Shown here piece after piece: positions 4,762 to 42,345 of a stretch of 64,000 nt of DNA. The stretch comes from Populus alba (lineage: Eukaryota > Streptophyta > Magnoliopsida > Malpighiales > Salicaceae): positions 3,038,001-3,102,000 of the forward strand of contig NC_133293.1 in the NCBI RefSeq assembly GCF_005239225.2. Direction: 5' to 3'. Position 1 is the stretch's first letter; each line of letters starts with the position of its first letter. The position numbers were made by a program, and so were the translations under genes. Under the pieces are notes generated by a model. That model did no database searches, had not been told where the DNA came from, and saw only the letters and a list, made by a program, of their open reading frames with translations.

Positions 4762-7700
4762 CTAAAATTTCCTGAAAATAGCCTCAACTGATTTTCCAGC
4801 ATTGTCAAAAATTCTCCTGTTTCTTTCCTCCCAAATCAGATACACAAGAACGGTTAGAGAAACTCTTCGCATTCTCGGCTGTAGGCCTTTTTTCCTGTTA
4901 TGCAAAACCCGGGTGGCTATATCTAAGGAACACATATTTCTGTGTAGCCGGAGCCAGTGCTTGGCCTTTCTCCATAGAGAAGACGACCAGTCGCAAGTGA
5001 AGAAGAGATGAGCATGAGACTCTTCAACATTTTGACAAAGAGGGCATATAGGATCAGGGGAGAGAAATTGAAGACTATCTCTCGTTCTCAGCTTGCCCAA
5101 AATTGCCAGCCATAAGGAGAAGCTATGTCTTGGAAGAGACCATTGCTCCTAGACTACATTAGCCCAATGGACAGGATCGACTTTATGTCTGAAAAAATCA
5201 TATGCATTGGCTGTAAGGGAACATTGATCAGATTGCCAGCTTGAGAGCAGCTGTTGCACTGGAGCAACCCCTCCACAAAGGCTAATCAATTTATTATGAA
5301 TCGAGAAGATAGACTTCCACATAGGAGAGTCTGTTTTCTTGGTATCCAAGGACCAGATGGAGGCACGCATAATGTAGTAGTGGCTTACCCATCTAATCCA
5401 AAGGGAATCTGTCTTAGAGTGAATATTCCAAAGATGTTTGGCAAAGAAACTTTCATTTCTAGCTTTGATGTCATGAACCCCCAGACCCCCTTCATCTTTT
5501 GGCAAACACACTTGCCTCCAAGCAACAAGAGCCGATTGACTTCTAAGCATATCCTCAGTCCATAGAAAATTCATGTACAAACTGGTAATCCTGCTAATAA
5601 CAACAGTTGGGATAGGGAAGATACTAATCCAAAACTACACCATGCCATGCAGGACTGATTTGATTAACTGCAGCCGACCTGCATAGGAGAGATACTTTCC
5701 CATCCAATTCTGTATAGCAGATTCTAATTGGTGAATGAGGGGTGAGAATTGGCTGGCGACAAGCTTGTGAGGGCTCAGAGGGACACCAAGGTACTTAAAG
5801 GGAAAGCTTCCTTCGGAGAACTGGGAGAGGCTTAGGATTGCCTGCTTCATATCCTCTGATACACCAGCGAAGAAAATAAAGGATTTGGATGCATTAATTA
5901 CTAGCCCGGAAGCCTCCCTAAAAACTCGAAGTTGTTGGAGGATAATGTTAACGGAGGCCATGTCAAAACGGCAAAGCAGGAGAATATCATCAGCAAATCC
6001 AAGATGATTGATTCCCAAAGCTTGACATTTAGGATGGAAATTGAAATCTGAATGTTGGGTGGTGCTTTTTAGGAGTCTAGAGAAGTACTCCATGCAGATA
6101 ATGAAGAGATAGGGAGACAATGGATCTCCTTGTCTAACACCACACTTGCCTTGGAAGAACCCGAAAAGATTATCATTAATGCAAATAGAGAAAGAGGCAG
6201 TCTCCACACATTTTATAACCAGATGAACAAACCTAGCAGGGAAACCCAGAAGAAGAAGCAGGTCGCGTAGAAAAGACCACTGAACAGTATCAAAAGCTTT
6301 CCTGAAGTCAATCTTGATGGTGCATCGGGGTGACACACGTTTCCTCCCATAACTTCTTAGTAGCTCTTGCATGAGATTAATATTGTCAGCCATTAGCCGC
6401 CCACTAAGAAAAGCATTTTGAGAAGGGCTGATGATCTCATTTAATACATGAGATAATCTCTCTGCAAGAAGCTTGGAAATAACTTTGTAAGTGGCATTGC
6501 AGCATGAGATAGGTCTGTAATCTGAAGCAATGTTGGCATTAGCTGATTTTGGGACAAGGGCTATGGTAGAGTGATTAATCTGCTTGACGATCTCCCCAGA
6601 AGCAAAGAAATCTTTAACAACAAAACAAAAGTCTTCGCCCACTATGCTCCAAGATTTTTTAAAGAATGCAGAGGTGTATCCATCTGGCCCCGGAGCTTTA
6701 TTATCATCCATACTGAAGAAAACTCGTTTGATGTCATCAGCCGATACTGGGGCAAGGAGAAATTCGTGGGAATTAGCATTAATGCAGGTCCCCCTTTGAA
6801 CAACATCAACACGCGGGGGAATAGTATTCTTTGCAGTCCCAAGCAGGTCTTTATAGTAAGCAATAAACACTTTGCCCACCTCTTCAGTCGAAGAAGTTAG
6901 TATGCCATCACTTCGAACAATTGCTGAAATGTGGTGTCTTTTATGTCGTTAACTCATGAAAGAGTGGAAGAATCTGGTTCCCTTGTCATAGTCTTTGAAA
7001 AAGGAACATTTAAGCTTTTGTACAAAGAACATCTTCTCAGCTGATTTGAGGTTTACAAGATTCAACCTTTGCTGTTTTTCTAGAGCAAGAAGATCACCAT
7101 TGTCCATGTCATTCTGAAGGAGAAGTTGAGTATCGTCTAGCTCTTTCTCTGCTCTTGCGACTCTCTCTGAAATGTGACTGAAATGAAGATTGTTCAAAGT
7201 TTTCAGCTTGCCTTTTAAGTGCTTAAGTTTATTGCATAGAATATACATGTGGGACCCGTAGATATCCAAGGACCAATGTTGGGAGATGGTTTCCAAGAAC
7301 TGTGGATGAGCAGCCCATATGTTAAAGAATTTGAAGTTCTGTTTTCCACAAAGTTCACGAGAACCCATTTGCACGGTAGAAGGTGAGTGGTCTGAGAAGG
7401 CTCCCGGGTTGCCAAAGTGAGCAAGAGTCGTTTGCTGTAAATTGAACCATTGGTTGTTTGCCATAACTCTATCTATCTTTGTCCAGATATTACCATTTGT
7501 CCATGTAAAATGGGAGCCCGTAGAGTTTAGGCCAGCTATCCCAAGATCAGAACAACAATTCCTGAAGTCAGAGGTTTCATAAGTGGAAACAGGCTCCCCG
7601 TTGTGCTTGTCTTCTTGAGAGAGAATAGAGTTGAAGTCACTAAGAAGCAACCATGGAGCATCCGGACCCCATCTTCTCAAATCCTCCCACAAATCTCTCC

Positions 7701-8049
7701 TGGCAGTAATGGTATTAAAACCATATATGAAGGTAGTTGTAAAACATAATTGTTGCACCAAAGTTGTAACCATAACGTGAATCCCTTGGGCAGAGAAGTG
7801 AAGCATGTCAACCTTAACTGTTTCAAGATTCCAAAACACAATTATACGGGCATAGGCTGCAGATTCAGCATTGCAAACAAACTTTCAAGCCTTTAACCGA
7901 AACTTATGCATGCATTCAACTTTAGGCAAAGACAGCTTAGTCTCTAGGAGACCACATACATCAATCTTCTTACTCTTCATGAGGCCAGTGACCTCATGCT
8001 GCTTGAGAGGGCTGTTCAGCCCTCTCACATTCCAGCAATGGATAATCAT
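4762..8049 (-). pseudogene. LINE1 ORF2: endonuclease / reverse transcriptase
   Basis: A single 1096-codon frame broken by four in-frame stops (7885-7887, 6949-6951, 5635-5637, 5149-5151) and no frameshift. The N-terminus MIIHCWNVRGLNSP is the start of an APE-type endonuclease, with LLSDFNSI and FSDHSP motifs following. The RT domain has NKAPGPDG, DYRPISCCN, KIDFRKAFD, GVRQGDPLSPYLF and the catalytic FADD at about residues 685-688. A C-terminal zf-RVT-type Cys/His motif (CPLCQNVEESHAHLFFTC) follows. The enzyme would nick DNA and copy LINE RNA. Its ATG overlaps the ORF1 stop as ATGA. The copy is inactive but was lost by point mutation only. Confidence 0.92.
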
Positions 8050-9841
8050 GGGTGGGGGAGGGTGGGAGGAGCCCGACCAACGCCAGCAACTGTATTGGAA
8101 GTCTTTTGAAACGAGCTCCTGGTGAGCACACCTAAACGTGGACGCTGAAAAGTCTTTGTGCCAGCTATGTCAACTGAGCAAGCAGGAGCTTTCCCCTTGG
8201 AAACATGTTGTCGGGCCTGCTGGTTACTTGGAGCATTATTTGCAACATTTTGTTGAGCTGGCTGGTTACCTTCAGAATGCACAGGAGGAGGTGACTGTCT
8301 CTTGTTCCCTGATTTATGCCTCTTTTTACCCACAGTATGCCACTCTTCTGAATCGACAGCTGTGACTTGGGAGCATGGCCGACCATCCTTAGCTGCACTA
8401 GACGTTGGGGGATGAGTGGGAGCCACGGGATCAGAGGCATCAACTGGAGAAAGATGAGTTGCACAAGACGTTGGGGGATGAGTGGGAACAATGGGTTCAG
8501 AGGTATCAACTGGAGAAGGAGCAATACTTGGGACTTGTACCGTGGGAGCAGCAGTAGATGGGGAATCCACAAGAGCTTGATCAACCAGGTTAAGACAAGT
8601 GGAGACCTTTTCTTTGCCTTTGACATTTGCTTTTGTAACTACACAAGCAGGGAAAACTGTCTCAACATTTGTGACTTCTTCCTTAGTCTTTGAGCATGTT
8701 CCAGTAGAGTGACCTCACACTTTACAGTGCTTGCAAAACTTGGGCAACGCTCATATATGACCTTTTGAGTGAGTGTGTTTCCATTGGGCAGGATGACATT
8801 GATGAATGATCTGAGGTCAGCTAGGAGGTCGATTTCCACAAGCACCCGAGCATATGAAACTCTCTCTTTGGTGGCAGTAAGTTTGTCACTTTGTATAGGC
8901 TTGCCCAAGACGCTTGATAGTTTTGATAAGCACCTAGGGGACCAACATTTCAATGGTAGATTTGGAAACTTAATCCAAACTAGAACTTGAGTCATTTCAG
9001 AGGATGAAAAATCAAAATACTAAGACATGGAACGCAGGATAAGAGGTCTACCATAGACAAGGTATGGACCTCCACACAACACAGAGCACTTATCCTCTTC
9101 ATTTTGAAATTTATAAACAAGCCAACCCGATTCATGCATACGAAGTGTGGCTTTACATTTCCATACGTTCTCAATGATGCTAGTCAAAGCTCTATACCCA
9201 GGAAATTTTCTAGAAACATAACCAATGACACAAAGTTTCCACTCATCACAAGAATGGTCCAGGTCTTCAGTTAAGAAAGGGTAGGATGATATGTCATGTA
9301 AGGCTGAAAAATGCATGAGCTTCAGGCAAGATGAGATGTTTCTATTTGTAGAAAATAAATCTCTCCATGTACCATTAACAGGTGGTGGTGGAGCTGGTGG
9401 GTTACTTGTTTTAACAGATCCGGACGGGGTGAAGCTGGCATCTTAAGATCTAGTTGGTGGTTTAAGAGCAGTTGGAGATGAAGAAGGAGGTGGATCTGGG
9501 CTGATTGGAACCAGAGAAGGTGGTGAAGCTGAGCTGATTGGAATCGGGGAAGATGGTAGAGGGGACGTTGCATATTCATCATCCGAATAAGAGAAATTAA
9601 GTTACTCTTCTTCGAGATCTTCATTGGTAGGATGGTCAACTTCAAGGGACCCATTCAGAGCTATCTTTGTGCCAGAACCGCTGGCTTGGTTGACTATGGG
9701 GTGAGGGGACAGATCTGCACTAGAGATGTTGGAGCCGGCCAGCAAAGCAAAAGCTGATTTGATTCCAAGAACTGTAGTGGGAGGTGATGCTAGGACCTGT
9801 GCGCACTTGACAGATGTTGTTTTCCTTTTACTTTTTTCCAT
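8046..9841 (-). pseudogene. LINE1 ORF1: DUF4283 / zinc-knuckle RNA-binding protein
   Basis: Starts MEKSKRKTT at 9841. A Pro/Ser-rich linker is followed by a DUF4283-like core (FPGYRALTSII, HESGWLVYKF, GGPYLVYGRPLILR) at 9020-9316, then VWIKFPNLPLKCW and RVSYARVLVEIDL at 8639-8995. A CCHC knuckle (CKHCKV-GHSTGTC) near 8690-8740 is broken by a stop and a frame change, and a Pro/Thr/Ser-rich tail runs to the stop at 8046. In-frame stops lie at 9602, 9443 and 9020, and the last section is in another frame. The family is thought to act as the RNA chaperone of plant LINEs. Inactive. Confidence 0.85.
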
Positions 9842-18969: not shown

Positions 18970-20718
18970 TGACACGACCAAAAGCTTGATGTCTTCTCCC
19001 AAGTGCAGGAGTGTCGAAGTAATAAATAACCCGGCAAGACTGGGGTCGAACCATAGAAAGGGTAATTGTATAAATTATAAATAACAACACAACAACAACA
19101 ACAACAACAATAACAATAATAACGATAATAATAACAATAGTAGTAGTAGTAATAGTAATAATAATAATAATAATAATACTCAGTACGTGGCGTTGTTATA
19201 CCTGAGAATGATCTAAAAGATCGGGTCACAGGTTTCCAACCTATATACTAAGTTTATGAACAAATAATAATAATAATAATAATAATAGTAGTAATAGTAA
19301 TAACAATAATAAAGAAGAGAAGGAAGAAATTAATGAGAACTTTGAGTTGGAAGATTAATGTAAGGATTAAACAATGATAAAAATAAATGTCAAGGTTAGA
19401 GGATGTGGATGGTACTTCAAACAAGTATAGTATAAACTCTTATTACTCAATTGGAAACCACACATAAAGGAGGTTCCAATCAGATTATAAATTGTTAACA
19501 TGATTACATTAGTTATCTTATTCGAATAAAGCTATACTTGTAAATGTTGGCAGACATTCATGATTATAACTTATGTTAACAACAAATCAAGTTCCTTTCA
19601 TAGCTCAGATGTCGGTTATACCATACAGTATGGGCTATGAAAGTACCAAGTATTTGTTGTACCAAGTGTTATACAACATAAATCTAGATTAACCATTTAA
19701 CAAACAAAGTATTAAAAGTGAACAAGATAACAAACATAAAACATGTTAGTATCCAACGTTAAGGTCCATGTTAAGTTTATATTATACTTATTCTTACACC
19801 ATTAGTGTACCCTTTTCACCTTGACATAATTAACTTAGCTAAACATAATGAAAGAAAGAAACATAAATGAACAAGATAAGAACATAAATGAGAAAGAAGT
19901 TAACTAAGTAAAGGAAAGGAAATGAAGTGCATAAACTTGATATTAATGAAAGCAAAACATAAGCAATACAAAGAGAGAAAGCAAGAGCATGATCTTGATC
20001 TGCAAACCAAGATGCCTCAATACATGGTAAGTGCCTCCTTTTATAGGCCAAAATTTGGAACTATTGATTTGTTAATTAATTGATGAGTGGGTGGCCACAT
20101 CTTGACTTGGTGACAATCCTTATCTTCTTGTCTGAACAAGACATCATTGCTAACATCATAATTTGCCCAGAATCCTCAGGAATGTTCTAGGAAATGGTCT
20201 CATCTTTCCAACAAAAAAAAGATGAGGTCATTTGGACTTCTAGAACTCAAGTTTTGGGCTGAACACTAAATAGTGTCTGGGCTGCAGGACAACTTCGGAC
20301 TTCTTTGTTGTTCCTTCAGTTTGGACTTCAAAACGGCCTTTTTAAATCTTGGGCTCCTCATGAAAGTTGTAGGCCTTTGTCTTACCTTTCCATCCATATA
20401 AAATGGACCTAAATCCGAGATCTAGAGCTCCAGATATGATCCAATTACCGAGCAATGTTCCGGTTTGGACTGCATCGACATCTCTTTTCTAAGTTTGGCC
20501 ATCTCTTTGTCCTTTCACTTTCAATACTTAAACTCATCAATCAATCCTTTTATTTATGTGATAGGCCTGCATTTAAAATGAGCATTTACCATAAATTAAG
20601 GTATCTTATAGTATCAAACTTGTTATTAAAACATGCTTTAGTTAAGGAGTTATTGATACTTCAAGTGCAAAATGATGATATAAAACTTTGATAAACATGC
20701 AATTTTAAGTACTAATCA
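18970..20718 (-). repeat. Athila 3' LTR, 1749 bp
   Basis: The plus strand begins TGACACGACCAAAAGC and ends ACTAATCA, pairing with 29081-30809. It holds long (TAA)n and (AAC)n simple repeats at about 19083-19185 and 19263-19310. Confidence 0.92.
19083..19185. repeat. Simple repeat (AAC/AAT/AGT)n
   Basis: Trinucleotide tract inside the Athila LTR. Its reverse translation gives a spurious poly-Tyr ORF. Confidence 0.9.
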
Positions 20719-21096
20719 CACCCCCCAACCAGCTTATTACTAGTCCCTAGTAATCTAAAGCGTTAAAATAGAGAAACAATTTGCAAGTTTCACAAAGCAA
20801 GGCATTCATCATTCAACTTCCATTAATCTATCCAGATAAACAAATTCTCATTAAATTTATATTACTGCTTCATACTTCTTAAACAAGATATTAATAAACC
20901 TTCTTTTTATATGCTCAATATATGAAAACATAGATGATGGGGCTTTTGTTGGAAGAAAACAATATTATGTTCAAATGTTTAAGGTGAACTTCCTTGGGTT
21001 GGGATTATTATTATTTACTTTTTTTTATTTTTTTTATTTTTATTTATATACACATACAACATAATGTATCTTTAACCCATGTAACGAGTTTTAGGC

Positions 21097-21145
21097 TAAT
21101 GACTCCCAGACCAGTTGGTCTTAGGGCATTAGGTGTTGAGACACC
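21097..21145 (-). ncRNA. Predicted RNA hairpin pair, unit 1 (Athila 3' region)
   Basis: Hairpin a: TAATG..CCC.A.GACCA-GT-TGGTC..GGG.CATTA (21097-21131). Hairpin b: GGTGT-TGAG-ACACC (21132-21145). Read from the sequence by eye; no folding program was run. Confidence 0.5.
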
Positions 21146-21249
21146 CCTACGAGCTTAAACAACTCGGGTTGTAGATACTGATACGTAGATAGTGCAATGT
21201 TTGATTCCCTTAAGCTTTTCTCCTTAACCCATGTAACAAGCTTTAGGCC

Positions 21250-21297
21250 AATAGCTCCCAAGTCAGTTGACTTTAGGGTATTAGGTGTTAAAACACC
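21250..21297 (-). ncRNA. Predicted RNA hairpin pair, unit 2 (Athila 3' region)
   Basis: Same architecture as unit 1, with compensated stem bases: AATA..CCC.AAGTCA-GT-TGACTT..GGG.TATT (21250-21282) and GGTGT-TAAA-ACACC (21284-21297). Confidence 0.5.
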
Positions 21298-21939
21298 CCT
21301 TCGGGCTTAATTACTTAGGTTAGGGAGGCTACGAAACCAAACTTATCTACGTTTTTATTATCATCAATATTATTATTTTTTTTTTTGCAAATTATATACT
21401 ATCCCTTTCCCTTAGTTGTTACCTTTAACAAAAGAACATAAATAATGTAATAATCCAATGTGCAACCCACAATCATATGTTAAAATGTGTGTGTGAAAAT
21501 GAAGGTTTAATAATACTTGTTAAATGAGTATATGAGCAGAATCAAGTGATAACAATGCGAGAGTTTGTAAACCTGAATATTTCAAGAAGTATTCTAATAG
21601 GCCAAGAATATTGCAAATAACCATTAGAAAATTTTTACTACGATGCGTCTCAAGAATAATTCCTCTTTACTCTGCCATCCTAGTAATAACAGTTTTGCCA
21701 AATGGTTTTTTTAAAAACAACAACAGTTAGTTGGTTAGTTTTTTTTTTTTTTAAAACTACTACCCTCTCCCCCCCAACCAAAACGAGACATTGTCCTCAA
21801 TGTCCTAAGGTAGAAAGATAGAGTATAGAAGACATCACCTGAAACAGCGAACAATGACAAACCTTAAACACACTTAAACAAATATAAGAAGTAACAAAAC
21901 AAAATAATATGCTATTAATAACACAAAAGACACAAGGTT

Positions 21940-22593
21940 TCACAAATGAAGGCTCAAATCTAATCTAAGCTTTTTACGGCTTTCCTTAGCTGACCAATCT
22001 AGGCGACTCATGCAAGGATCAATGACAGGGATGAAAGATTGTAGTTGGTCAATCAATTGTTCAGCAGTAGCAGCAGAGATTATGATTTGTCGTGCCGAAG
22101 ATATTAGAAATTCTTGCTCCACAGCTTGATCAAGGAAAGATAACAACTTATCATAAAAACCATTAACATTTAACAAACCTATAGGTTTATGGTGAATGTG
22201 CAGTTGGGCCCAAGATGAAATATGAAAGATCTCTTCCAATGTGCCCAGACCACCTAGTAAGGCAATGAAGGCATCAGCATGGTTAAACATGGTATTCAGT
22301 CGGTCAGACATTGTTGGGACCTGTAGTTCCTCTCCAATTGTTTTTCCAATGATGTCCCCATTTGCTAAAGCTTTGGGGACAACCCCCAAAACTTGACTGC
22401 CTCCTAAAAATGCAGCCATTGAAACACCTCCCATTAACCCAAGGCTGCCTCCCCCATACACTAAATGAATCTTTCTCTCAGCTAGTACTTGACCAAGATG
22501 ATTTGCGGATTCTAAAAACTCCTTTTCTTTCCCAGGGCTGGATCCACTGAAAACACAAATATTTCTTATGTGATGACTTGAGGAACCTGCCAT
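21940..22593 (-). CDS. LOG-like cytokinin riboside 5'-monophosphate phosphoribohydrolase carried by Athila element
   Basis: A 217-aa intact, intronless ORF from ATG at 22593. LOG enzymes release active cytokinin base from its riboside monophosphate. Visible family features are an N-terminal Rossmann start (NICVFSGSSPGKE, residues 11-23), YGGGSLGLMGGVS (46-58), GVVPKAL (70-76), the conserved Arg98 in MSDRLNTM, and the signature region, here LGGLGTLEE (113-121), then SSWAQLHIHHKPIGLLNV. The length is normal for the family. The first residue of the PGG signature is Leu113 (codon CTA at 22255-22257), one C-to-T change from Pro; Gly-Gly and both Glu are kept, so activity is uncertain. Plant LOG genes normally have several introns, so this looks like a retro-copied capture. 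It lies in the sense direction between ORF X and the 3' LTR, with its own TATA-like box. Confidence 0.9.
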   Translation of the reverse strand: MAGSSSHHIRNICVFSGSSPGKEKEFLESANHLGQVLAERKIHLVYGGGSLGLMGGVSMAAFLGGSQVLGVVPKALANGDIIGKTIGEELQVPTMSDRLNTMFNHADAFIALLGGLGTLEEIFHISSWAQLHIHHKPIGLLNVNGFYDKLLSFLDQAVEQEFLISSARQIIISAATAEQLIDQLQSFIPVIDPCMSRLDWSAKESRKKLRLDLSLHL

Positions 22594-22658
22594 TTCTACA
22601 CACTTCTATATTTGATGAATGTATGGGATGAGTAGAAATGAAGGGAAGGAAGAGAAGA

Positions 22659-22665
22659 ATTTATA
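22659..22665 (-). promoter_or_regulatory. TATA-like box upstream of LOG-like ORF
   Basis: Minus-strand TATAAAT, 66 bp before the ATG, followed by a CT-rich leader (TCTTCTCTTCCTTCCCTTC), the composition of a plant 5' UTR. Promoter function is inferred. Confidence 0.45.
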
Positions 22666-22831
22666 AATGAAAAAGTGAAAATGCAATCATACCACCTACA
22701 TGTAGGCCAGCTGTAGTCTCACACTCTCTCTCTTTATTTATTTATTTTGACAAAGCATGTATGTACAGGTAGTTGTGATTGTGGCTCACATCTTCCCTTG
22801 GTTTTACGTCCAAGAACGGCTTAAACGCCCT

Positions 22832-23380
22832 CTATGGGTCGGGGATAGGCTTCCCATCCAGTTTTCTTAAAAACTGACAAACAGGGTTTTTTTTAGTCAG
22901 ATTCCCAAGACTAAGTCGATCATGTTCTTTATGGAATTGTAGCCATAAATCATGAAATACACGATGCACATCTCCATTAGGATGCGTCTCAAGGGTCAAT
23001 AAAAGATTATCTAAAGACCCTTTACTCAGGCCATCCTTAATGAATTGTATTTTATCTTCACGGTTTACAGATACCATTCCTAAAGAACGACATGTCGCAT
23101 TACAAGTCCATCTGGCACATCTGTGACAGACTTTCAATCGTTTTGCACGACGTTTCTTTGCAAAAGTGCTTTTACCTGTTCCAGGCATGTGTAAAATGAA
23201 AGAATTGGAGGACTCACCTGATAATCGGACCTTTGCTTCAATCAGCCAACGAATATCTTCAGGAATTCCATGGTTCATTAACAATCTCAATCTTTCACAC
23301 CTAGCACGGTAAATTTTTGTAATCGCATTCTGAGGCAGAGCGGGAAAATACTTTTTCAATTTTTCAAGAGTGGTGTCCAT
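22832..23380 (-). CDS. Accessory ORF X: basic, cysteine-cluster protein of Athila element (function unknown)
   Basis: 182 aa from the first ATG (23380); a longer reading would need a TTG at 23440. The N-terminal half is helical and charged (LEKLKKYFPAL; IYRARCERLRLL). An Arg/Lys patch, AKKRRAKRLK (residues 74-83), resembles a nuclear localisation signal. It leads into a Cys cluster CHRC-X4-C-X3-C (Cys85, 88, 93, 97) and then REDKIQFIKDGL. A basic patch followed by paired cysteines is the layout of the small cysteine-rich nucleic-acid-binding proteins of carla-like plant RNA viruses. That is a resemblance seen by eye, not a proven relationship. The frame is intact and sense to the element, 211 bp after pol and 239 bp before the LOG-like ORF. 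It does not look like gag, pol or a membrane env. Nucleic-acid binding or silencing suppression is an inference. Confidence 0.7.
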   Translation of the reverse strand: MDTTLEKLKKYFPALPQNAITKIYRARCERLRLLMNHGIPEDIRWLIEAKVRLSGESSNSFILHMPGTGKSTFAKKRRAKRLKVCHRCARWTCNATCRSLGMVSVNREDKIQFIKDGLSKGSLDNLLLTLETHPNGDVHRVFHDLWLQFHKEHDRLSLGNLTKKNPVCQFLRKLDGKPIPDP

Positions 23381-23590: not shown

Positions 23591-25819
23591 TCAATCTTTA
23601 TATACAGGATCACGCAATTCAGTAGAGTCATTTTCAACTGAAAAATTGTCAAAATAAACTTTCAACCGATGCCCATTTACCTTGAAAACATTGCCATTCT
23701 TTGGATTCTCGATATCACAGGCCCCATATGGATACACATGTTTCACAATAAAAGGACCGCTCCATCTTGATCTTAGTTTTCCAGGAAATAAATAGAGTCG
23801 AGAATTATAAAGCAAGACTTTTTGACCAACATTGAATGTTTTTCTCTGTATTTTCTTGTCATGAAACTCTTTGATTCTTGCTTTATGAATTCTTGAATTG
23901 TCATATGCATCATTTCTAATTTCCTCAAGCTCATTTATTTGCAATTTTCGCAGCTGACTAGCATCATCAATGTTTGAATTGAAAGCTTTAATAGCCCAAT
24001 AAGCTTTGTGTTCAATTTCCACAGGCAAGTGACAAGGTTTTCCATAGACTAGTCTATAAGGTGACATACCTAATGATGTTTTATATGCAGTTTGATAAGC
24101 CCAAAGTGCGTCATTAAGTCTTAAAGACCAGTCTTTCCGATTAGGGTTCACCGTTTTCTCTAAGATCTGTTTGATCTCCCTATTAGCAAGCTCTACTTGT
24201 CCACTTGTCTGAGGGTGATAAGGGGTGGCAACTTTGTGTGTGATTCCATATTTCTTCATTAAAGAAGCAAATGGCTTGTTGCAGAAATGTGTTCCACCAT
24301 CACTTATTATGGCTCGAGGAATTCCAAATCGACTCAAAATATTGTCTTTCAAAAACTTTATCACTGTTTTGTGATCATTGTTTCGACTTGGAATTGCCTC
24401 TATCCATTTTGAAACATAATCTATTGCGACTAATATGTACACGAAACCAAATGATGGAGGAAATGGACCCATGAAATCTATACCCCAACAGTCAAAGATC
24501 TCAATGACAAGAATGAGATTTAAAGGCATCATGTGACGTTTTGAAATAGATCCCAACTTTTGACAATTTTCATAAGTCTTGCAGAATGCATGTGAGTCTT
24601 TGAACATGGTGGGCCAATAAAATCCACTTTGTAAGATTTTTGCAGTTGTCTTTCTTGATGAGAAATGACCCCCACATGCCTCAGAATGACAAAATTTAAT
24701 GACACTACTTACCTCATTGTCAGGAATGCATCTTCGAAATATTTGATCAGGACAATATTTGAATAAATAAGGGTCATCCCAATAAAAGTTCTTCACTTCG
24801 TTCAAGAACTTTCTTTTGTCTTGGGTACTCCAATGAGCTGGCAATTGTCCTGAAACAAGAAAATTAACAATATTAGCAAACCAAGGCATCGTAGAAACGG
24901 AAAATAAAGATTCATCGGGAAAGTAGTCATCGATTGGTGTGATGTCAGATTTCGAATCTGTTGTCAATCTTGACAAATGATCTGCAACAACATTTTCGGT
25001 GCCTTTCTTGTCTTTGATTGTGATATCAAATTCTTGAAGTAACAAAATCCACCGCACCAATCTAGCCTTAGAATCTTTCTTAGAAAGAAGATATTTCAAT
25101 GCTGTATGATCACTAAAAACAACAAGTGAGCCAACTAGATAAGACCTGAATTTATCACAAGCAAATACTACTGCAAGTAATTCTTTTTCAATGGTGGTGT
25201 AATTCATTTGAGCACTATTTAAAGTTTTACTTGCATAGTAAATCACATAAGGTTTCTTATCTTTTCTTTGTCCCAAGACAGCACCCATGGCATAATCACT
25301 AGCGTCACACATTATTTCGAAAGGTAATGACCAATCAGGAGGTTGAATGACAGGAGCAGAAGTAAGCAAGTTTTTAAGTTTAACAAAGGCTTCTTCACAA
25401 TGTTCAGTCCATTCAAAAATATTATCATTTGTTAGAAGGTTACTCAAGGGCTTAAATATTACACTAAAATCTTTGATGAACCTTCTGTAAAAACCAGCAT
25501 GTCCTAAGAATGATCTAACATCTTTAACAGATTTTGGTGTTGGTAAGTTGGCAATTAACTCGATTTTAGATTTGTCAACCTCAATTCCTTTCGATGAAAC
25601 AATGTGACCAAGTACAATGCCGTTTGTTACCATAAAGTGACATTTTTCCCAATTCAATACAAGATTCTTCTCTTCACACCTGCTCAAAACCTTTTCTAAG
25701 TTAGTCAAACAATCATCAAATGAATCACCAAAAACAGAAAAATCATCCATAAAAATTTCAAGAAAACGTTCAACCATATCACTGAATATGCTAAGCATGC
25801 ATCTTTGAAACGTGGTGGT
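23591..25819 (-). pseudogene. Athila pol: RT C-terminal half, RNase H, integrase
   Basis: Uninterrupted frame of about 740 codons after a 1-bp frameshift near 25813-25819. It has the RT catalytic FMDD ([12 protein letters not shown]) near 25740-25755, then [13 protein letters not shown] and [14 protein letters not shown]. RNase H shows [16 protein letters not shown] and [13 protein letters not shown]. Integrase has the HHCC zinc motif ([17 protein letters not shown]) and a DDE core with [20 protein letters not shown] and [13 protein letters not shown], then a GPF-type C-terminal module. The enzymes copy RNA to DNA and insert it. Only the frameshift disables this part. Confidence 0.92.
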
Positions 25820-28800
25820 GCATTGCATAATCCAAAAGGCATCCTTCGATATGCAAAAGTACCAAATGGACATGTGAAAGTAGTCTTCTCTTGATCTTCC
25901 AATGCAATTTCAATTTGATTGTAACCTGAATAGCCATCTAGGAAACAATAAAATTCATGACCTGCAACTCTTTCTAGGATTTGGTCCATGAAAGGTAAAG
26001 GGAAATGATCTTTTCTAGTCATTGAATTAAGTTTCCTATAGTCAATGCACATGCGCCAACCAGTAACAGTCCTAGTTGGAATTAACTCATTTTTCTCATT
26101 CATTATCACAGTGACTCCAGACTTTTTGAGTACAACTTGGGTAGGACTTACCCATTTGCTGTCAGAAATAGGATAAATGATTCCATTATCTAGAAGCTTA
26201 ATGACTTCATTTTTCACTACTTCTTTCATATTAGGATTAAGCCTTCGTTGCATTTCTCTAGAGGGTTTAGCATTTTCCTCCAAATAAATCCTGTGTGTGC
26301 AAATCAAAGGGCTAATTCCTTTTATGTCAGCTATGGTCCATCCTAATGCATTTTTGTGCATTTTCAAAATCTGTAATAACTTACCTTCTTGATGTGCATT
26401 AAGTTTGGAAGAGATTATTACCGGAAAAGTTTCATTTTCTCCCAAAAATGAGTATTTGAGATTAAATGGTAACGACTTCAATTCAGGTTTTGGTGGTTGA
26501 ACACTTGAAGGTATGGGCTCAATTGATCGTGGTGGCAATTCTTCAATTTGTGGTCTCCAATTGCATGCCTTTGATTCCTGAAAGTAGACCATTTGCAAAT
26601 CATCAGATTCATCAATCTCAGTTTCACTGGAAGTGGTTTGAAATTGATCATGAACTAATTTTTCAATAAAGTCCACTTCCTGTAAATCATTATCATCTCC
26701 AGGTTGCTTGTAAATGTTGAAAACATTCATCTCTAATGTCATGTTTCCAAATGATAGCTTCATCAGTCCATTCCTACAATTAATCAATGCATTAGAAGTG
26801 GCAAGAAATGGACGTCCTAAAATGACAGGAATTGAATTACATGCTTTAACAGGTTGTGTATCCAAGACAACAAAATCTACAGGGTAAATGAATTTATCCA
26901 CTTGTACTAACACATCCTCAACTATTCCTCTAGGCACTTTTACAGATCTATCGGCAAGTAAAAGAGTTACAGTAGTTGGTTTTAACTCACCTAGATTAAG
27001 ACTTTGAAAGACTGAATATGGAAGTAAATTCACACTAGCTCCAAGATCAAGTAAGGCTCTTTCAATTTTATGTTCTCCAATAAAGCAAGAAATTGTAGGA
27101 CAACCAGGGTCTTTATATTTCAAAGCATTATTGTTTTGAAGAATGACACTTACTTGTTCGGCTAAAAAGGCTTTCTTTTTCACATTCAGTTTTCTCTTCA
27201 CAGTGCACAAATCTTTCAAAAATTTAGCATAGGAAGGTACCTGTTTAATAGCATCCAACAAAGGTATATTGATCCTTACCTGTTTGAAAGTTTCAAAGAT
27301 TTTAGAGTTATGATTGACTTTCCTTTGTTTGGTCATGGCATGAGGAAATTGAAGTGCTGGCGGGGAATCAATCTTTTCTTTGCAATGTTCAGGTTCAACC
27401 CCTTCCTTACCCTCAGAGATAGACTCATCATCTTTCTCACAAGGTTCAAGAATAGGTTTTTCAATAACCTTACCACTACGAAGAGTGATGACTGATTTGA
27501 CTTGATCCATGTGTTGGCTTCCAGAACCACTTGCATTTGCATTGTATTGCCCCCTTGGATTTTGCTGTGGTTGAGATGGAAACTTACCTTTCTCTTGAAA
27601 ATTGAGAGCAGATGTTAATTTTGCAAGAGCATCTTTAAAATCTATCATGCTATGAGCAAGTTGAGTGTTGATTGTCTCCTGCTTTTCAATGAATGCATGC
27701 AATGTTTCCTCAAAATTTCTTCTAGGAGGTGGAGCATAAGGAGGTGCATATCCATGAGAATTTTGAAAATTATGGTGTGCTTGAAACGGTGGCTGTGAAG
27801 TTTGTGCATTGTTTCTATCACTCTTCCAACTGAAATTTGGGTGATTTCTCCAACCAGGGTTGTACGTTTGTGAGTATGGGTTATGGTTGGGTCTTTGGAA
27901 ACTGTTTAAAGCATGGGCTTGTTCATGGAGGCATTCCTTAAAAGAAGGCAAAGTTGGACAATCATTTGTTGAATGTTCATTAGTTTCACAGATTTGACAC
28001 ACAATGTCTTGAACAGATTTTAATTGACCATTTTTTTTCAATTTAAGTGCTTCGACTTTTCTAGCTAAAGATGCAAACTTGGCTTGGAGGTCATGATCTT
28101 CCCTAAGGTTGTGCATACCTCCACTAGATGTATGAGGTTGTGTTTTACTTGGTGCCTCATAAGTACCTGTGGTGTCCCAATTTTGAGCATTTTTGGCTAG
28201 CAAGTCTAGGTACTCCATTGCTTCATTAGGGTCTTTATCTTCGAAAGTTCCATTGCACATCAATTCAACCATTTGCCTATCTCTAGGTGTTAAACCTTCA
28301 TAAAAATGTGAAACCAATCTTCATGTTTCAAAACCATGATGTGGGCAAGTATTAAGCAAATCTCAATACCTATCCCAACATTGGTAAAATGTTTCTCCTG
28401 GTTTTTGAGTGAAAGTGATGATTTGTCTTTTGAAAGAGTTTGTTCTGTGAGACGGAAAAAACTTCTTTAAAAATTGTTGTTGCATTTCATCCCAAGCACG
28501 AATAGATCCTGGTCTCAAATTTTATAGCCATGTTTTAGCTTTATCTTTTAATGAAAAAGGAAAAAGCTTTAATCGAATGGTGTTCATGCTACAATTTGAG
28601 TCATTATAGGTATTACAGACCTTCTCAAATTCCCTTAAATGCAAGTATGGATTTTCTAGGTCTAAGCCATGAAAAGATGGTAAAAGTTGAATAATGCCTG
28701 GCTTAAAATTAAAATAAGATGCATCATGAGGGAAAACTATGCATGAGGGTGCACTTGTTCTTGTGGGATTCATGTGGTCTCTAAGTGTTCTCTTACGGTT

Positions 28801-28848
28801 ATTCTCATTATTCTCATTATGAAGCGATTGATTATCTTCTTCAGTCAT
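25820..28848 (-). pseudogene. Athila gag, protease and RT N-terminal half
   Basis: Starts MTEEDNQSLHNENN at 28848. Gag core: IIQLLPSFHGLDLENPY, LREFEKVC and KDKAKTWL. Three in-frame stops lie at 28522-28524, 28363-28365 and 28321-28323, all consistent with C-to-T or G-to-A changes. A CCHC knuckle CQICETNEHSTNDC is near 27960-28010. The protease has ALLDLGASVNLLP, the DLGAS variant common in the Athila/Tat group. RT motifs are KWVSPTQVVLKK, RMCIDYRKLNSMT and [10 protein letters not shown] one-base loss after NAP (CCACCACG where CCAGCCACG is expected) breaks the frame at 25813-25819. Inactive. Confidence 0.9.
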
Positions 28849-29054
28849 ATTTTCTGAAAATGATGAGGATACCCTACAAAGTCGACCACTTAATGTACGT
28901 GACCAAACTCGCATGCACGTGTAAAAAGAGAATAAAAGGAAGAAAAGAAAATAGAAGAAAACGAAACAAAACAAAACAAAGAAAACAAAAGTTAGATAAA
29001 ATGAAAAGTGAAAAGAGAAAATAAAATAAATATTATAATTTATACAAGAATTTA

Positions 29055-29074
29055 CCTCCCCAGCAACGGCGCCA
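29055..29074 (-). other. Primer binding site, tRNA-Asp type (Athila)
   Basis: Minus strand TGGCGCCGTTGCTGGGGAGG, six bases inside the 5' LTR, close to the known Athila-group site complementary to tRNA-Asp. Confidence 0.9.
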
Positions 29075-29080
29075 AAAACT

Positions 29081-30809
29081 TGACACGACCAAAAGCTTGA
29101 TGTCTTTTCCCAAGTGCAGGAGTGTCGAAGTAATAAATAACCCGACAAGATCGGGGTCGAACCACAAAGAGGTTAATTGTATAAATTATAAATAACAACA
29201 CAACAATAACAACAATAACAACAATAATAACAATAGTAGTACTAGTAATAGTAATAATAATAATAATACTCAGTATGTGGCGTTGTTATACCTGAGAATG
29301 ATCTAAAAGATCGGGTCACAGGTTTCCAGCCTATATACTGAGTTTATGAACAAATAATAATAATAATAATAATAACAACAATAACAACAACAATAATAAA
29401 GAAGAGAAGGAAGAAATTAATGAGAACTTTGAGTTGAAAGATTAATGTAAGGATTAAACAATGATAAAAATAAATGTCAAGGTTAGAGGATCCACTAATG
29501 GTACTTCAAACAAGTATAGTATAAACTCTTATTACTCAATTGGAAACCACACATAAAGGAGGTTCCAATCAGATTATAAATTGTTAACATGATTACATTA
29601 GTTATCTTATTCGAATAAAGCTAATACTTGTAAATGTTGGCAGACATTCATGATTATAACTTATGTTAACAACAAATCAAGTTCCTTTCATAGCTTAGGT
29701 GTCGGTTATACCATACAGTATGGGCTATGAAAGTACCAAGTATTTGTTGTACCAAGTGTTATACAACATAAATCTGGATTAACCATTTAACAAGCAAAGT
29801 ATTAAAAGTGAACAAGATAACAAACATAAAACATGTTAGTATCCAACGTTAAGGTCCATGTTAAGTTTATATTATACTTATTCTTACACCATTAGTGTAC
29901 CTTTTTCACCTTGACATAATTAACTTAGCTAAACATAATGAAAGAAAGAAACATAAATGAACAAGATAAGAACATAAATGAGAAAGAAGTTAACTAAGTA
30001 AAGGAAAGGAAATGAAGTGCATAAACTTGATATTAATGAAAGCAAAACATAAGCAATACAAAGAGAGAAAGCAAGAGCATGATCTTGATCTGCAAACCAA
30101 GATGCCTCAATACATGGTAAGTGCCTCCTTTTATAGGCCAAAATTTGGAACTATTGATTTGTTAATTAATTGATGAGTGGGTGGCCATATCTTGACTTGG
30201 TGATAATCCTTATCTTCTTGTCTGAACAAGACATCATTGCTAACATCATAATTTGCCCAGAATCCTCAGGAATGTTCTAGAAAATTGTCTCAGCTTTCCA
30301 ACAAAAAAAAGATGAGGTCATTTGGACTTCTAGAACTCAAGTTTTGGGCTGAACACTAAATAGTGTCTGGGCTGCAGGACAACTTCGGACTTCTTCGTTG
30401 TTCCTTCAGTTGGACTTCAAAACGGCCTTTTTAAATCTTGGGCTCCTCATGAAAGTTGTAGGCCTTTGTCTTACCTTTCCATCCATATACAATGGACCTA
30501 AATCCGAGATCTAGAGCTCCAGATATGATCCAATTACCGAGTAATGTTCCGGTTTGGACTGCATCGGCATCTCTTTTCTAAGTTTGGTCATCTCTTTGTC
30601 CTTTCACTTTCAATACTTAAACTCATCATTCAATCCTTTTATTTATGTGATAGGTCTGCATTTAAGATGAACATTTACCATAAATTAAGGTATCTTATAG
30701 TATCAAACTTGTTATTATAAAACATGCTTTAGTTAAGGAGTTATTAATACTTCAAGTGCAAAATAATGATATAAAACATTGATAAATATGCACTTTTAAG
30801 TACTAATCA
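29081..30809 (-). repeat. Athila 5' LTR, 1729 bp
   Basis: Partner of 18970-20718, with the same termini and simple-repeat tracts. The PBS lies immediately inside. Confidence 0.92.
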
Positions 30810-31485
30810 CTCATGCTTTAAACAGTTTTCAAAGGCCCAATCATAACCCATACTTGCAAATATACAACCCTGGTTGGAGAAACCACCCAAATTTAAGTTG
30901 GAAGAATGATAACAATAATGCACAAACTTTGAGGCCACCATTTCAAGCAAACCATAATTCCCAAAATTCTAATGGATATGCACCTGCTTATGCTCCCCCT
31001 CCTAGAAGAAATCTTGAGGAAACTTTGCATGCATTCATTGAAAAGCAAGAGACAATCAACACTCAACACTCAACTTGCTTAAGGCATGACAACTTTTAAA
31101 GATACTCTTGCAAAGTTAACATCTGCTCTTAGTTTCCAAGAGAAAGGTAAGTTTCCATTTCAACCACAACATAATCCAAAGGGGCAATACAATGCAAATG
31201 CAAGTAATTCTGGAAGTCAATACATGGATCAAGTCAAATCAGTCATCACTCTTCGTAATGGTAAGGTTATTGAAAAACCCACTCTTGAACCTTGTGAGAA
31301 AGATGAGTCAATCTCTAAGGGTAAGGAAGGGGTTTTATTTGAACATTGTAAAGAAAATATTGATTCTCCGCCAGCACTTCCATTTCTTCATACCATGACC
31401 AAACAAAGGAAAGTCAATCACAATTTCTGAAATCCTTGAAACTTTCAAAAAAGTAAGGATCAATATACCTTTATTGGATGCTATT
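30810..31485 (+). pseudogene. Athila gag fragment (plus strand)
   Basis: Reads HALNSF then YNPGWRNHPNLSWK, YAPAYAPPPRRNLEETLHAF, VKSVITLRNGKVIEKP and PALPFLHTM, the middle to end of Athila gag as in 27250-27930. It has a frame change near 31080, and both ends are lost: the Athila LTR on the left, an LTR insertion at 31486 on the right. Confidence 0.85.
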
Positions 31486-39400: not shown

Positions 39401-39536
39401 GATCAGATCTCAATCTTGATTGTGGGTTGCGTGATGATCACGAGGTTCGCATCAGTTGCACATTGAATTATTATATTATTTACGTTCTTTTGTTAAAGGT
39501 AATAACTAAGGGAAAGGGATAGTATATAATTTGTAA

Positions 39537-39538
<2 letters not shown>

Positions 39539-39581
<43 letters not shown>
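39539..39581. repeat. Simple repeat (ATA)n
   Basis: About 14 uninterrupted trinucleotide units in the Athila 3' region. Confidence 0.95.
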
Positions 39582-39582
<1 letters not shown>

Positions 39583-39698
39583 GCATAGATAAGTTTGGTT
39601 TCGTAGCCTCCCTAACCTAAGCAATTAAGCCCGAAGGGGTGTTTTAACACTTAATACCCTAAAGTCAACTGACTTGGAAGCTATTGGCCCAATGCTTG

Positions 39699-40828
39699 TG
39701 ATGCGAACCTCGTGATCACGTGGTCACGCAACCTACAATCAAGATTGAGATCTCATCCCGGAAAGCCAAAAGAGGTCTGATAAGAGTGTGACACAATGGA
39801 AACCTATCCCAAGGCACCAACATTATTGGAATGAGTAGAATGACGCCACGAAGCTAGTTAATCTTCGATCAGTCAGATTTAGTTCGTTCAAGAACTGAAG
39901 AATGCAAGAATCACTCTCACACGTTAAAACTGAAAAAAAATCAGAATAATATTCATCAAAGCTGCTGAAATTTTAGCTTACATGAGTTTAAATAGTCTTT
40001 GAAAAATTAACCCTAATGGACCCCTTATGTGGACTTATATGAGGTCCACTTAAAATTGACCTAACACCCTAAACTGAAAAGCCCGTAACTTAATCCAAAC
40101 AAGCCTTGGATCCTAGCTGAAAACAAAGTATTAATTTAGCCCAAACAAGCCTTGGGCTGTAGCTATCAAAATAAAAATAAATCCCCTAATATTAAATCCT
40201 TGTTCTGCCATGAGAAGAAGAGAATGAAGTAAAATATTACAGAACTAATTCAAGGCTTATTTATAGCCTTCCATGTAGCCCCTTAATCCTAGAAACAAAA
40301 GGAAAAGGTAGCCACCCATGTTGTTTCCTTTGTATAGGATTCTTTTGTTTCCTTTGGTAAGCTGTCCTCACTTCAAGGCCCAAATAAGGTAGCCCAACAA
40401 AACAAAAACTTGTATTGGACCCCGCCCTCCAAGTCTTTGGATGTTTTCATCTGTTTGTTGAACATATCAGATGATATTATTTGATCAAAAACCAATTCGA
40501 AGTTTAGACACATCCTCTTCTGGCCATGGGAATCCATTCATCCAAGCTTTTTGTCATTCTTGGATTGGTGGTTGTGATCTTCATTATTGCAGAGACAGAG
40601 TGAGCACTCCATGAATACCAACCGATGAAGTCTATCCTGGGGCGTTGAGAGTTTCCGCCACCCAAAGAAGAAATGCATGATATGAGACCTTTCAATTCTG
40701 ACTTGGTGGAAACCTTCAAAGTCAATGCATTCAATGCCTCTTTCAATGTCTTTGTCTTGGACCGAGTTATTGGACCATTTGGAACATGTAATGGGTCCTT
40801 GCTGGTGTTTCTGGGTTGGTCCACATCA
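39699..40828 (-). repeat. Solo LTR type A/alpha with foreign insert, 1130 bp
   Basis: Perfect 5-bp target duplication GCTTG (39694-39698 and 40829-40833). The ends are TGATGCGAACC and the reversed type-A start (CCACATCA). About 260 bp (roughly 40425-40688) replaces ~60 bp of normal LTR and is not found in other copies here. Confidence 0.92.
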
Positions 40829-40942
40829 GCTTGCTACATGGGTTAAGGAGAAAAGCTTAAGGGAATCAAACATTGCACTATCTACATATCAGTATCTGCA
40901 ACTCGAGTTACTAAGCTCGTAGGGGTGTCTCAACACCTAATG

Positions 40943-41937
40943 TGATGCGAACCTCGTGATCACGTGGTCATGCAACCCACACGCAAAGACACCAATTCCC
41001 GGAAAGCCAAGTAAATCAGGTTTGATAGGAGTGTGACACAAAGATAACTTGTACCTAGGCACCAGCACTATTCGAAATAGAGACCCCCACCCAACAAATA
41101 TTGATTCGCGAACGAGAAGTATAAGGATGACGCCACGAAGATAGTTGTTCTTCAATAAGTCGTTTTCAGTTCTTTAAAGAACCATGGAAGGGAGATTATC
41201 TCACCAACACACATAAAGTGCGGCAAACAAGAAGTTTTATTAATATGAATTGTCTCCTTACATCTCTGGTCATGCCCTTATTTATAATGACTCCAAACTA
41301 AAATGAACCCTGATGGACCCCTTATGTAGACTTATACGATGCCCACTTACAATTAAACCCAAGTAATATAAATAAACCCTATAATAATAATAAAATAAAT
41401 AAATCTGAATTTAAAATCCTAAATATGATAGGATCATATTTGTTGCCCTTTAGAAGTCCTATATAAGCTGGAGAATCAAATCTGAAGGTCAAATTATTTC
41501 TGAAATCTTCTTTCCTTTTTGTAGCTAGGATGAATATGGAATCCTTATAAGAAAAGGATTCTGAAACATTTATGAATCATTGCCACACTTGAAAACTATG
41601 TTGCAACCCATTAAAGATCTTTGTAGAATTAGGAGATTTCCAAAATAAGCTGCCATATCCTTTTAGGAAAAGAATCCTAGCCAAATAGGAAGTCCACAAG
41701 TCAAAAGGAAGTAAATAACAAAACTCGTACAACCTTTGTTGACCTGTATTTGGATGCCTTGCCGAACTCCAATTGGCATGATATTTTAACCCAAGGTAGG
41801 CAAACATGTCAGGAGCCTCCACGTAAACTTTCAGCCCAATCCATTGGTAGGATTGAGAATTATGACTATTTCCGTAAAACTGGATAGTTGTGCATTTTAT
41901 GTGAAAATCCGAATTGGACCTTGCATGGATCGTATCA
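40943..41937 (-). repeat. Solo LTR type C/beta, 995 bp
   Basis: Perfect target duplication TAATG (40938-40942 and 41938-41942). The flanks rejoin exactly to the Athila 3' sequence of the other copy. Confidence 0.93.
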
Positions 41938-42018
41938 TAATGCCCGAAGACCAACTGGTCTTGGAGTCATTAGCCGAAAGCTCATTACATGGGTTAAAGA
42001 TGCATTGTGTTTTAAGTT

Positions 42019-42041
42019 ATATATATATATATATATATATA
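42019..42041. repeat. Simple repeat (AT)n
   Basis: Alternating AT tract inside the Athila 3' region. Confidence 0.95.
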
Positions 42042-42345
42042 AAGAGAAGAAAAAGATAATAATACTAACCCAAGGAAGTTATCCTTAAATATTAGAACAA
42101 AAATTGTGTTTTCTTCCAAGTAGAGCCCCATAACTATATATTGATATTTTGAACATAAAAGAAAGGTTTATTAATATCTTGTTTAAGAGGTATTGAGTAG
42201 ATATATGAATTTAATAAGAGTTTGTTTATCTCGATAGATTAATGGAAGTTGAATGATGAATGCCTTGCTTTATGGAATTTGCAAATTGTTTTTCTATTTT
42301 AACGCTTTGATTACTAGGGACTAGTAATAAGCTGGTTGGGGTGTG

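Follow-up and report, generated by a model that had tools for sequence, protein, structure and literature searches.

A LOG-family gene with a predicted role in cytokinin activation in a high-copy Athila-type retrotransposon of white poplar

That LOG genes occur in gypsy elements is already known. The YgdH domain, which is that of LOG proteins, has been found in Ty3/gypsy consensus sequences of Citrus sinensis and C. clementina and, with the filter off, in a gypsy consensus of Populus trichocarpa (Alvarado-Marchena, 2022; PMC9289625), a result in line with Steinbauerova (2011), which that report cites. Like the element described below, these are plant gypsy elements, one of poplar among them, in which a LOG-family domain forms an additional gene. 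They differ in what is recorded about them: in the sections of PMC9289625 drawn on here, the domain is named only, without copy number, gene order, an NABP partner, an intron comparison or a selection test. Our literature searches returned no fuller account of LOG in gypsy elements; gene order, abundance, intron loss, partner gene and selection are what the present analysis adds.

A host-type enzyme that was taken up and became fixed in the form of an additional ORF is also found in gypsy elements of Phalaenopsis, which encode an AlkB-type m6A demethylase (PMC9289625). As presented in the relevant sections of that source, this system differs in that the product is an RNA demethylase active in vitro, the elements are 25-kb orchid elements, and there is no hormone link. 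Athila elements that carry env-like ORFs, as far as the corresponding sections of PMC6317226 and PMC11728184 describe them, resemble the poplar element in that their Ty3/gypsy pol lacks a second RNase H and extra ORFs lie on the 3′ side, whereas the 3′ slot of the poplar element holds an NABP-like gene and a LOG gene.

Architecture of the element in the window

The stretch of DNA analysed (the window) comprises 64,000 nucleotides of Populus alba contig NC_133293.1. The element that it contains is laid out as follows.

18970..20718, minus strand: 3′ LTR, a direct repeat of 29081-30809 (element on the minus strand)
20719..20730, minus strand: polypurine tract at the 3′ LTR, sense GGTTGGGGGGTG (from the sequence)
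20731..21939, minus strand: 3′ noncoding region from LOG to the LTR, about 1.2 kb (the 3′ stretch of the element family)
about 21762-21779, minus strand: second purine tract, sense GGTTGGGGGGGAGAGGG, within the 3′ noncoding region
21940..22593, minus strand: LOG-family ORF, 217 amino acids, intronless, with Leu for Pro113 (ORF, PF03641)
22832..23380, minus strand: NABP-like ORF, 182 amino acids (PF05515, E 1.2e-6; PF01623, E 1.3e-5)
23591..25873, minus strand: second part of pol, with the end of RT, RNase H and integrase (Pfam; other frame than the first part)
25705..28317, minus strand: C-terminal part of gag, protease and start of RT (Pfam for protease and RT; gag by likeness to other copies)
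28522..29148, minus strand: ORF with the N-terminal part of gag (three in-frame stops before the next ORF; without a Pfam match)
29055..29079, minus strand: primer binding site region, sense GTTTTTGGCGCCGTTGCTGGGGAGG (from the sequence, PBS-like)
29081..30809, minus strand: 5′ LTR, a direct repeat of 18970-20718

This map of LTRs and domains bears out what an earlier note on this DNA had proposed: a minus-strand Athila-type element carries on its coding strand, downstream of pol and ahead of the 3′ LTR, an unbroken LOG ORF of 217 codons, without a stop. PBS-like and polypurine-tract-like sequences stand at the positions that such an element requires, and RT, RNase H and integrase follow one another in the gypsy order (PF00078, PF17919, PF17917, PF17921 and PF00665). 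The PBS is presumably of the tRNA-Asp type, and we take the name Athila to rest on this PBS together with the layout. A second (archaeal-type) RNase H is absent, as the scanned ORFs give a single RNase H stretch at E 1e-3; in the pertinent section of PMC6317226, such a second domain marks the Tat lineage. The Athila ORF-1 domain PF03078 is not among the Pfam matches of five window ORFs; by the account given in that section, it is present in 16% of Athila elements (PMC6317226), and it is not obligatory for membership.

The window copy is probably a damaged member of its family, with gag and pol broken and a change in the LOG core that likely impairs it. The gag region carries three stops and pol occupies frames 1 and 2, both as the earlier note had stated. 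Between the two LTRs, 53 of 1724 aligned positions differ (K 0.031), or 24 of 1228 once microsatellites are set aside (K 0.020). This difference need not date a single insertion, because the element ends, which are flanked by ATATC and CTCAT and so lack a target duplication of 5 bp, may stem from recombination or an adjacent deletion. Athila gag pieces on the plus strand at 30812-31485, 80-86% identical to the element gag, start directly past the 5′ LTR end and, with the absent target duplication, hint at recombination. The LTR divergence of the window copy exceeds that of each of the seven other pairs measured, whose K values of 0 to 0.018 (0 of 817 sites in one) indicate that the family moved recently.

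Minor features accompany this layout. A 90-base direct repeat (81% identical) lies within the 3′ noncoding region at 21069-21310. A TATA-like TTTATAAATT stands approximately 65-75 bases before the LOG start and is followed by a CT-rich stretch (22594-22670, minus strand); judged from their sequence, these could be a captured promoter and leader. An A-run near 21740 was considered as a relic of the poly(A) tail of a captured transcript and was rejected, because it sits past the purine tract that follows LOG. A second relative, on the plus strand, survives at 39455-44805 as fragments of this LTR and 3′ region, in which a LOG match at E 1e-3 is absent. Elsewhere in the window, ORFs at 5635-8570 (minus strand) resemble a non-LTR retrotransposon, with RT and endonuclease judged by eye.

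The NABP-like and LOG ORFs are the only coding-strand ORFs of at least 62 codons (stop to stop) in the 3′ slot. The earlier note had stated that Athila elements usually carry an env-like ORF here; extra 3′ ORFs are indeed present, but their content is an NABP-like gene and LOG rather than an env-like gene. The NABP-like ORF exceeds the cut-offs of both carlavirus models (29.0 bits against 23 for PF05515, 25.5 against 20.9 for PF01623), which 19 and 17 of 22 members, respectively, match at E 1e-3. It has 587 homologues at E 1e-3, and it is kept across element copies and in Xanthoceras, whose protein is 71% identical to that of the window. Its structural model is poor (pLDDT 59.6), and a fold match at E 0.001 was absent. 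Carlavirus NABPs are RNA virus proteins, whereas this ORF belongs to a retrotransposon family, and the likeness suggests that the gene may have passed between element and virus, in either direction; our literature searches gave no title linking carlaviruses to LTR retrotransposons or Athila. In some viruses, of carlaviruses as well as other genera, cysteine-rich proteins suppress RNA silencing. By analogy, silencing suppression by the NABP-like protein is a lead only.

The LOG family of the element and host LOG genes

The window LOG matches PF03641 with an E value of 1.9e-36 (125.5 bits against a cut-off of 27). Its closest solved relative is Arabidopsis At2g37210 (2a33; E 6e-59, residues 8-202), to which it is 50% identical, and the same structure is the top Foldseek match (E 8.9e-12) to a low-confidence model (pLDDT 50). 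We take Arg98 and the Glu of PGGxGTxxE to be the catalytic residues of LOG. Both are present in the window, and in 52 sampled genomic rows Arg98 is found in 51 and Glu121 in all; Thr118 and Gly114-115 are likewise kept in 51-52 rows. The core motifs named in the earlier note are thus there as regards Arg98 and Glu121, but the PGGxGT core of the window is incomplete. It reads LLGGLGTLEE, with Leu113 in place of Pro (P113L), whereas most sampled copies have the complete motif: codon 113 is CCA (Pro) in 48 of the 52 rows and CTA (Leu) in four, including the window. In the protein set, Leu113 occurs in 16 of 121 sequences, scattered across the tree. C-to-T change is expected in methylated DNA copies, and repeated change of this kind would give such scatter; the window LOG frame has six CpG where 27.6 are expected.

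These features tie the element LOG to the plant LOG phosphoribohydrolases, which act on cytokinin riboside 5′-monophosphate, through Pfam family, fold match, Arg98 and Glu121. It differs from them in being intronless, in being amplified with the element and in departing from family-invariant residues. At six of 51 sites that are invariant across the compared Arabidopsis, Xanthoceras and Streptomyces LOGs (family residues C16, H96, K99, A100, L122 and E124), the commonest poplar element residue departs from the family; three of the six sites lie beside Arg98 and two beside Glu121. The substrate of the element LOG may therefore differ. The viral contigs scanned held no relative, and the scan of genome contigs gave four Streptomyces LOGs only, which served as outgroup.

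The LOG ORF inside an Athila-type element is a real feature of the poplar genome and is repeated many times. A PF03641 search of the 416-Mb genome gave 1248 first-look candidates and the element's 3′ noncoding stretch gave 1435, numbers that count candidates rather than confirmed copies and are lower bounds. All 150 LOG candidates scored exceed the cut-off, and 149 are stop-free within the match; 40 of the 3′ candidates were scored. In the protein database the window LOG has 4642 matches at E 1e-3. The 120 listed among them are 80-96% identical to it, and most of these come from contigs under 10 kb of metagenome or survey sources, with a LOG frame of approximately 217 amino acids called intronless.

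Two samples place the gene within the element. The first comprised 20 of the 150 scored LOG places, at 9.9 kb each (one of them, L015, scrambled, and the stretches of L031 and L023 clipped at their ends). LOG is found in all 20; in 19 it is immediately followed by the 3′ region and LTR of the element, and in 19 an NABP match, whole or part, lies upstream. The second comprised the 20 places that most resembled the 3′ noncoding DNA of the window copy, from 39 scored besides the window. LOG is again present in all 20 and intact in seven; the other 13 are disrupted by stops or indels, have lost the start or are missing a large segment, although in one the only lesion is a 9-base in-frame deletion. 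Because all of these 3′-anchored places carry LOG, the gene belongs to the element and is not a lone retrogene. The earlier note had proposed a search for other Athila copies with the ORF; across the two samples, the same gene is present in all 40 places, with element context or anchor. LOG is a fixed part of the element family as sampled, and copies decay singly after insertion.

A short type of the element, with an internal region of approximately 6.1-6.2 kb, is represented by six copies (L013, L014, L016, L019, L022 and L032), which make up six of the seven other copies whose LTR pairs were measured. These have gag and protease, integrase parts only, and are without an RT match. LOG, the feature by which these six were chosen, is stop-free in each of them, and NABP is free of stops and indels in three.

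Host LOG genes are multi-exon, as the earlier note had stated. We located 11 intron-bearing loci (L073, with seven exon pieces, L074, L076, L077, L078 with L091, L081, L083, L084, L085, L087 and L088), whereas the element LOG frame of 217 unbroken codons has no introns. These loci were found with a 42-amino-acid piece and splice-junction patterns, since a 111-amino-acid Arabidopsis piece was swamped by element copies; the patterns gave 18 matches, seven of them element-like copies. At nine of the loci, the matched exon pieces share 29-64% identity with the window LOG. No host LOG with the element's residues was found by patterns that needed a GGTA junction and zero mismatches, a requirement by which other host LOGs may have been missed. 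The capture of a spliced LOG transcript, proposed in the earlier note, fits the lack of introns, from which we infer it; a source host gene was not found among the intron-bearing loci recovered.

Phylogenetic analysis supports the same division. Thirteen element-type poplar LOGs form one clade (bootstrap 100; support was read by bipartition), which is joined by two Xanthoceras LOG models (bootstrap 98); two host poplar and two Arabidopsis LOGs stand apart (bootstrap 96). A wider FastTree analysis of 121 poplar rows agrees with the element/host split. Together with the 2a33 match, the tree supports the grouping of the ORF with LOG proteins. The Xanthoceras sorbifolium sequences (P0251 and P0252) are gene models with two LOG pieces each, and in P0251 LOG is fused to a piece 52% identical to the window gag (E 1.5e-11), so that LOG likely travels with such elements in Xanthoceras too; these models are likely element LOGs annotated as host genes. 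The sequences fit a single old capture of LOG. Repeated capture is possible, given that no host subtype with the same residues was found.

Variation among LOG copies

The comparison across copies that the earlier note had proposed used 41 distinct places and the window, 42 in all, from which 34 LOG rows without a frameshift were retained and eight dropped. LOG has a dN/dS of 0.27 (561 pairs of the 34 rows), as compared to 0.18 for NABP (78 pairs; 13 of 24 rows) and 0.23 for the integrase end (15 pairs; six of 19 rows). Variants of LOG confined to a single copy have an N/S of 66/24 (2.75), where 2.2-2.7 is expected without selection. In contrast, variants common to at least two copies have an N/S of 46/55 (0.84; p 1.2e-4 versus single-copy variants). 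The corresponding values for single-copy and common variants are 27/23 and 7/18 for NABP (p 0.049), and 17/6 and 9/19 for the integrase end (p 0.0047). Pairs and common variants are non-independent, and all p values serve as guides.

The 34 rows were chosen mostly by LOG score, with possible bias, so a sample drawn without regard to LOG matters. That sample has 15 rows, the window and 14 of the 20 places. Its variants, 44/20 in single copies, are 18/13 at the cut of at least two copies (p 0.36, not significant), 5/10 at three (p 0.017) and 3/6 at five (p 0.061). When small indels are allowed (19 rows), the p values at these cuts are 0.083, 0.0027 and 0.0057, and with all 52 rows the counts are 95/28 versus 72/58 (p 3.2e-4). 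A protein-only test at the 51 family-invariant sites gives a weak signal, with p 0.037 at one cut and 0.09-0.10 at the three others. The pattern of variants apparently reflects purifying selection that acts on the replicating lineage but not on copies once inserted, a signature that is weaker in the small unbiased sample.

For the window ORF itself, the earlier note had reasoned that a frame without stops beside a broken gag and pol may be younger than they are, or kept by selection. Neither suggestion found support. The same gene is present in all 40 sampled places, single-copy variants are at neutral N/S, and the window copy carries P113L. With seven of 20 copies chosen regardless of LOG intact, an open frame in one copy is unremarkable, and the step from intact to young or selected was rejected for the single copy.

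Predicted role and alternative explanations

On balance, we lean towards reading the white poplar ORF as the LOG gene of a high-copy Athila-type element, set between an NABP-like gene and the 3′ LTR, bearing a signature of selection among replicating copies and predicted to activate cytokinin. An ancestral element would have taken up a spliced LOG transcript through template switching in reverse transcription, and the enzyme would be made from element RNA. It would then convert cytokinin nucleotides to active cytokinin in cells expressing the element, and the free hormone could favour dividing, meristem-like cells and thereby element replication or access to the germ line. Cytokinin activation is the most likely task predicted from the sequence, and a benefit through dividing, permissive cells is the most likely predicted reason for LOG retention; such elements are likely, by the same prediction, to shift the hormone levels of cells in which they are expressed. 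We advance only tentatively the fuller proposal that an env-like gene was replaced by NABP and a cytokinin-activating enzyme, that the hormone is used to keep cells dividing and permissive, and that the arrangement has been kept since before the poplar-Sapindales split. If true, a selected hormone-activating gene would represent a mobile element acting on plant development for its own gain, as some pathogens do.

The enzyme might instead serve another task, as a LOG-fold phosphoribohydrolase that acts on a different nucleotide and leaves cytokinin unaffected; it could, for example, clear modified nucleotides or ones resembling AMP while reverse transcription proceeds. The departures beside Arg98 and Glu121 speak for this, yet these residues may be inherited from a host LOG subtype, and the retention of Arg98, Thr118, Gly114-115 and Glu121 in nearly every row argues the other way; we regard this alternative as unlikely. 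A mere passenger, captured once by a successful element and copied along without benefit, seems distinctly improbable. The low N/S of common variants falls well short of the no-selection expectation, the dN/dS of LOG is similar to the value for the integrase end, which is native to the element, and the short type without RT keeps LOG in its six members (chosen by LOG). These observations are set against the intact gene in seven of 20 copies taken regardless of LOG, the neutral N/S of single-copy variants, and the small unbiased sample, which falls short of significance at one of the three cuts and is borderline at a second.

Explanations that detach LOG from the element fare worse. A separate LOG retrogene that landed in the window copy alone was rejected and has practically no probability left, since the same LOG adjoins the same element sequences in 19 of the 20 places of the first sample and in all 20 of the second. 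It is also very improbable that the sequences are host genes, namely poplar LOGs of the LOGL10 kind overrun by repeats or domesticated from them. LOGL10 records of P. trichocarpa and P. nigra do sit in the element LOG clade, but this is opposed by the LTR context that 19 of the 20 places show, by the 1248 candidates, by the 29-64% identity of the host exon pieces to the window LOG and by the position of two host genes in another clade. A few domesticated copies may nevertheless exist.

The poplar records named LOGL10 that fall within the element clade (P0093, P0244 and P0111) are likely element copies filed as host genes. For annotation, element copies are likely to be found under LOGL10 in poplar and under the bacterial-style TIGR00730 family in metagenomes.
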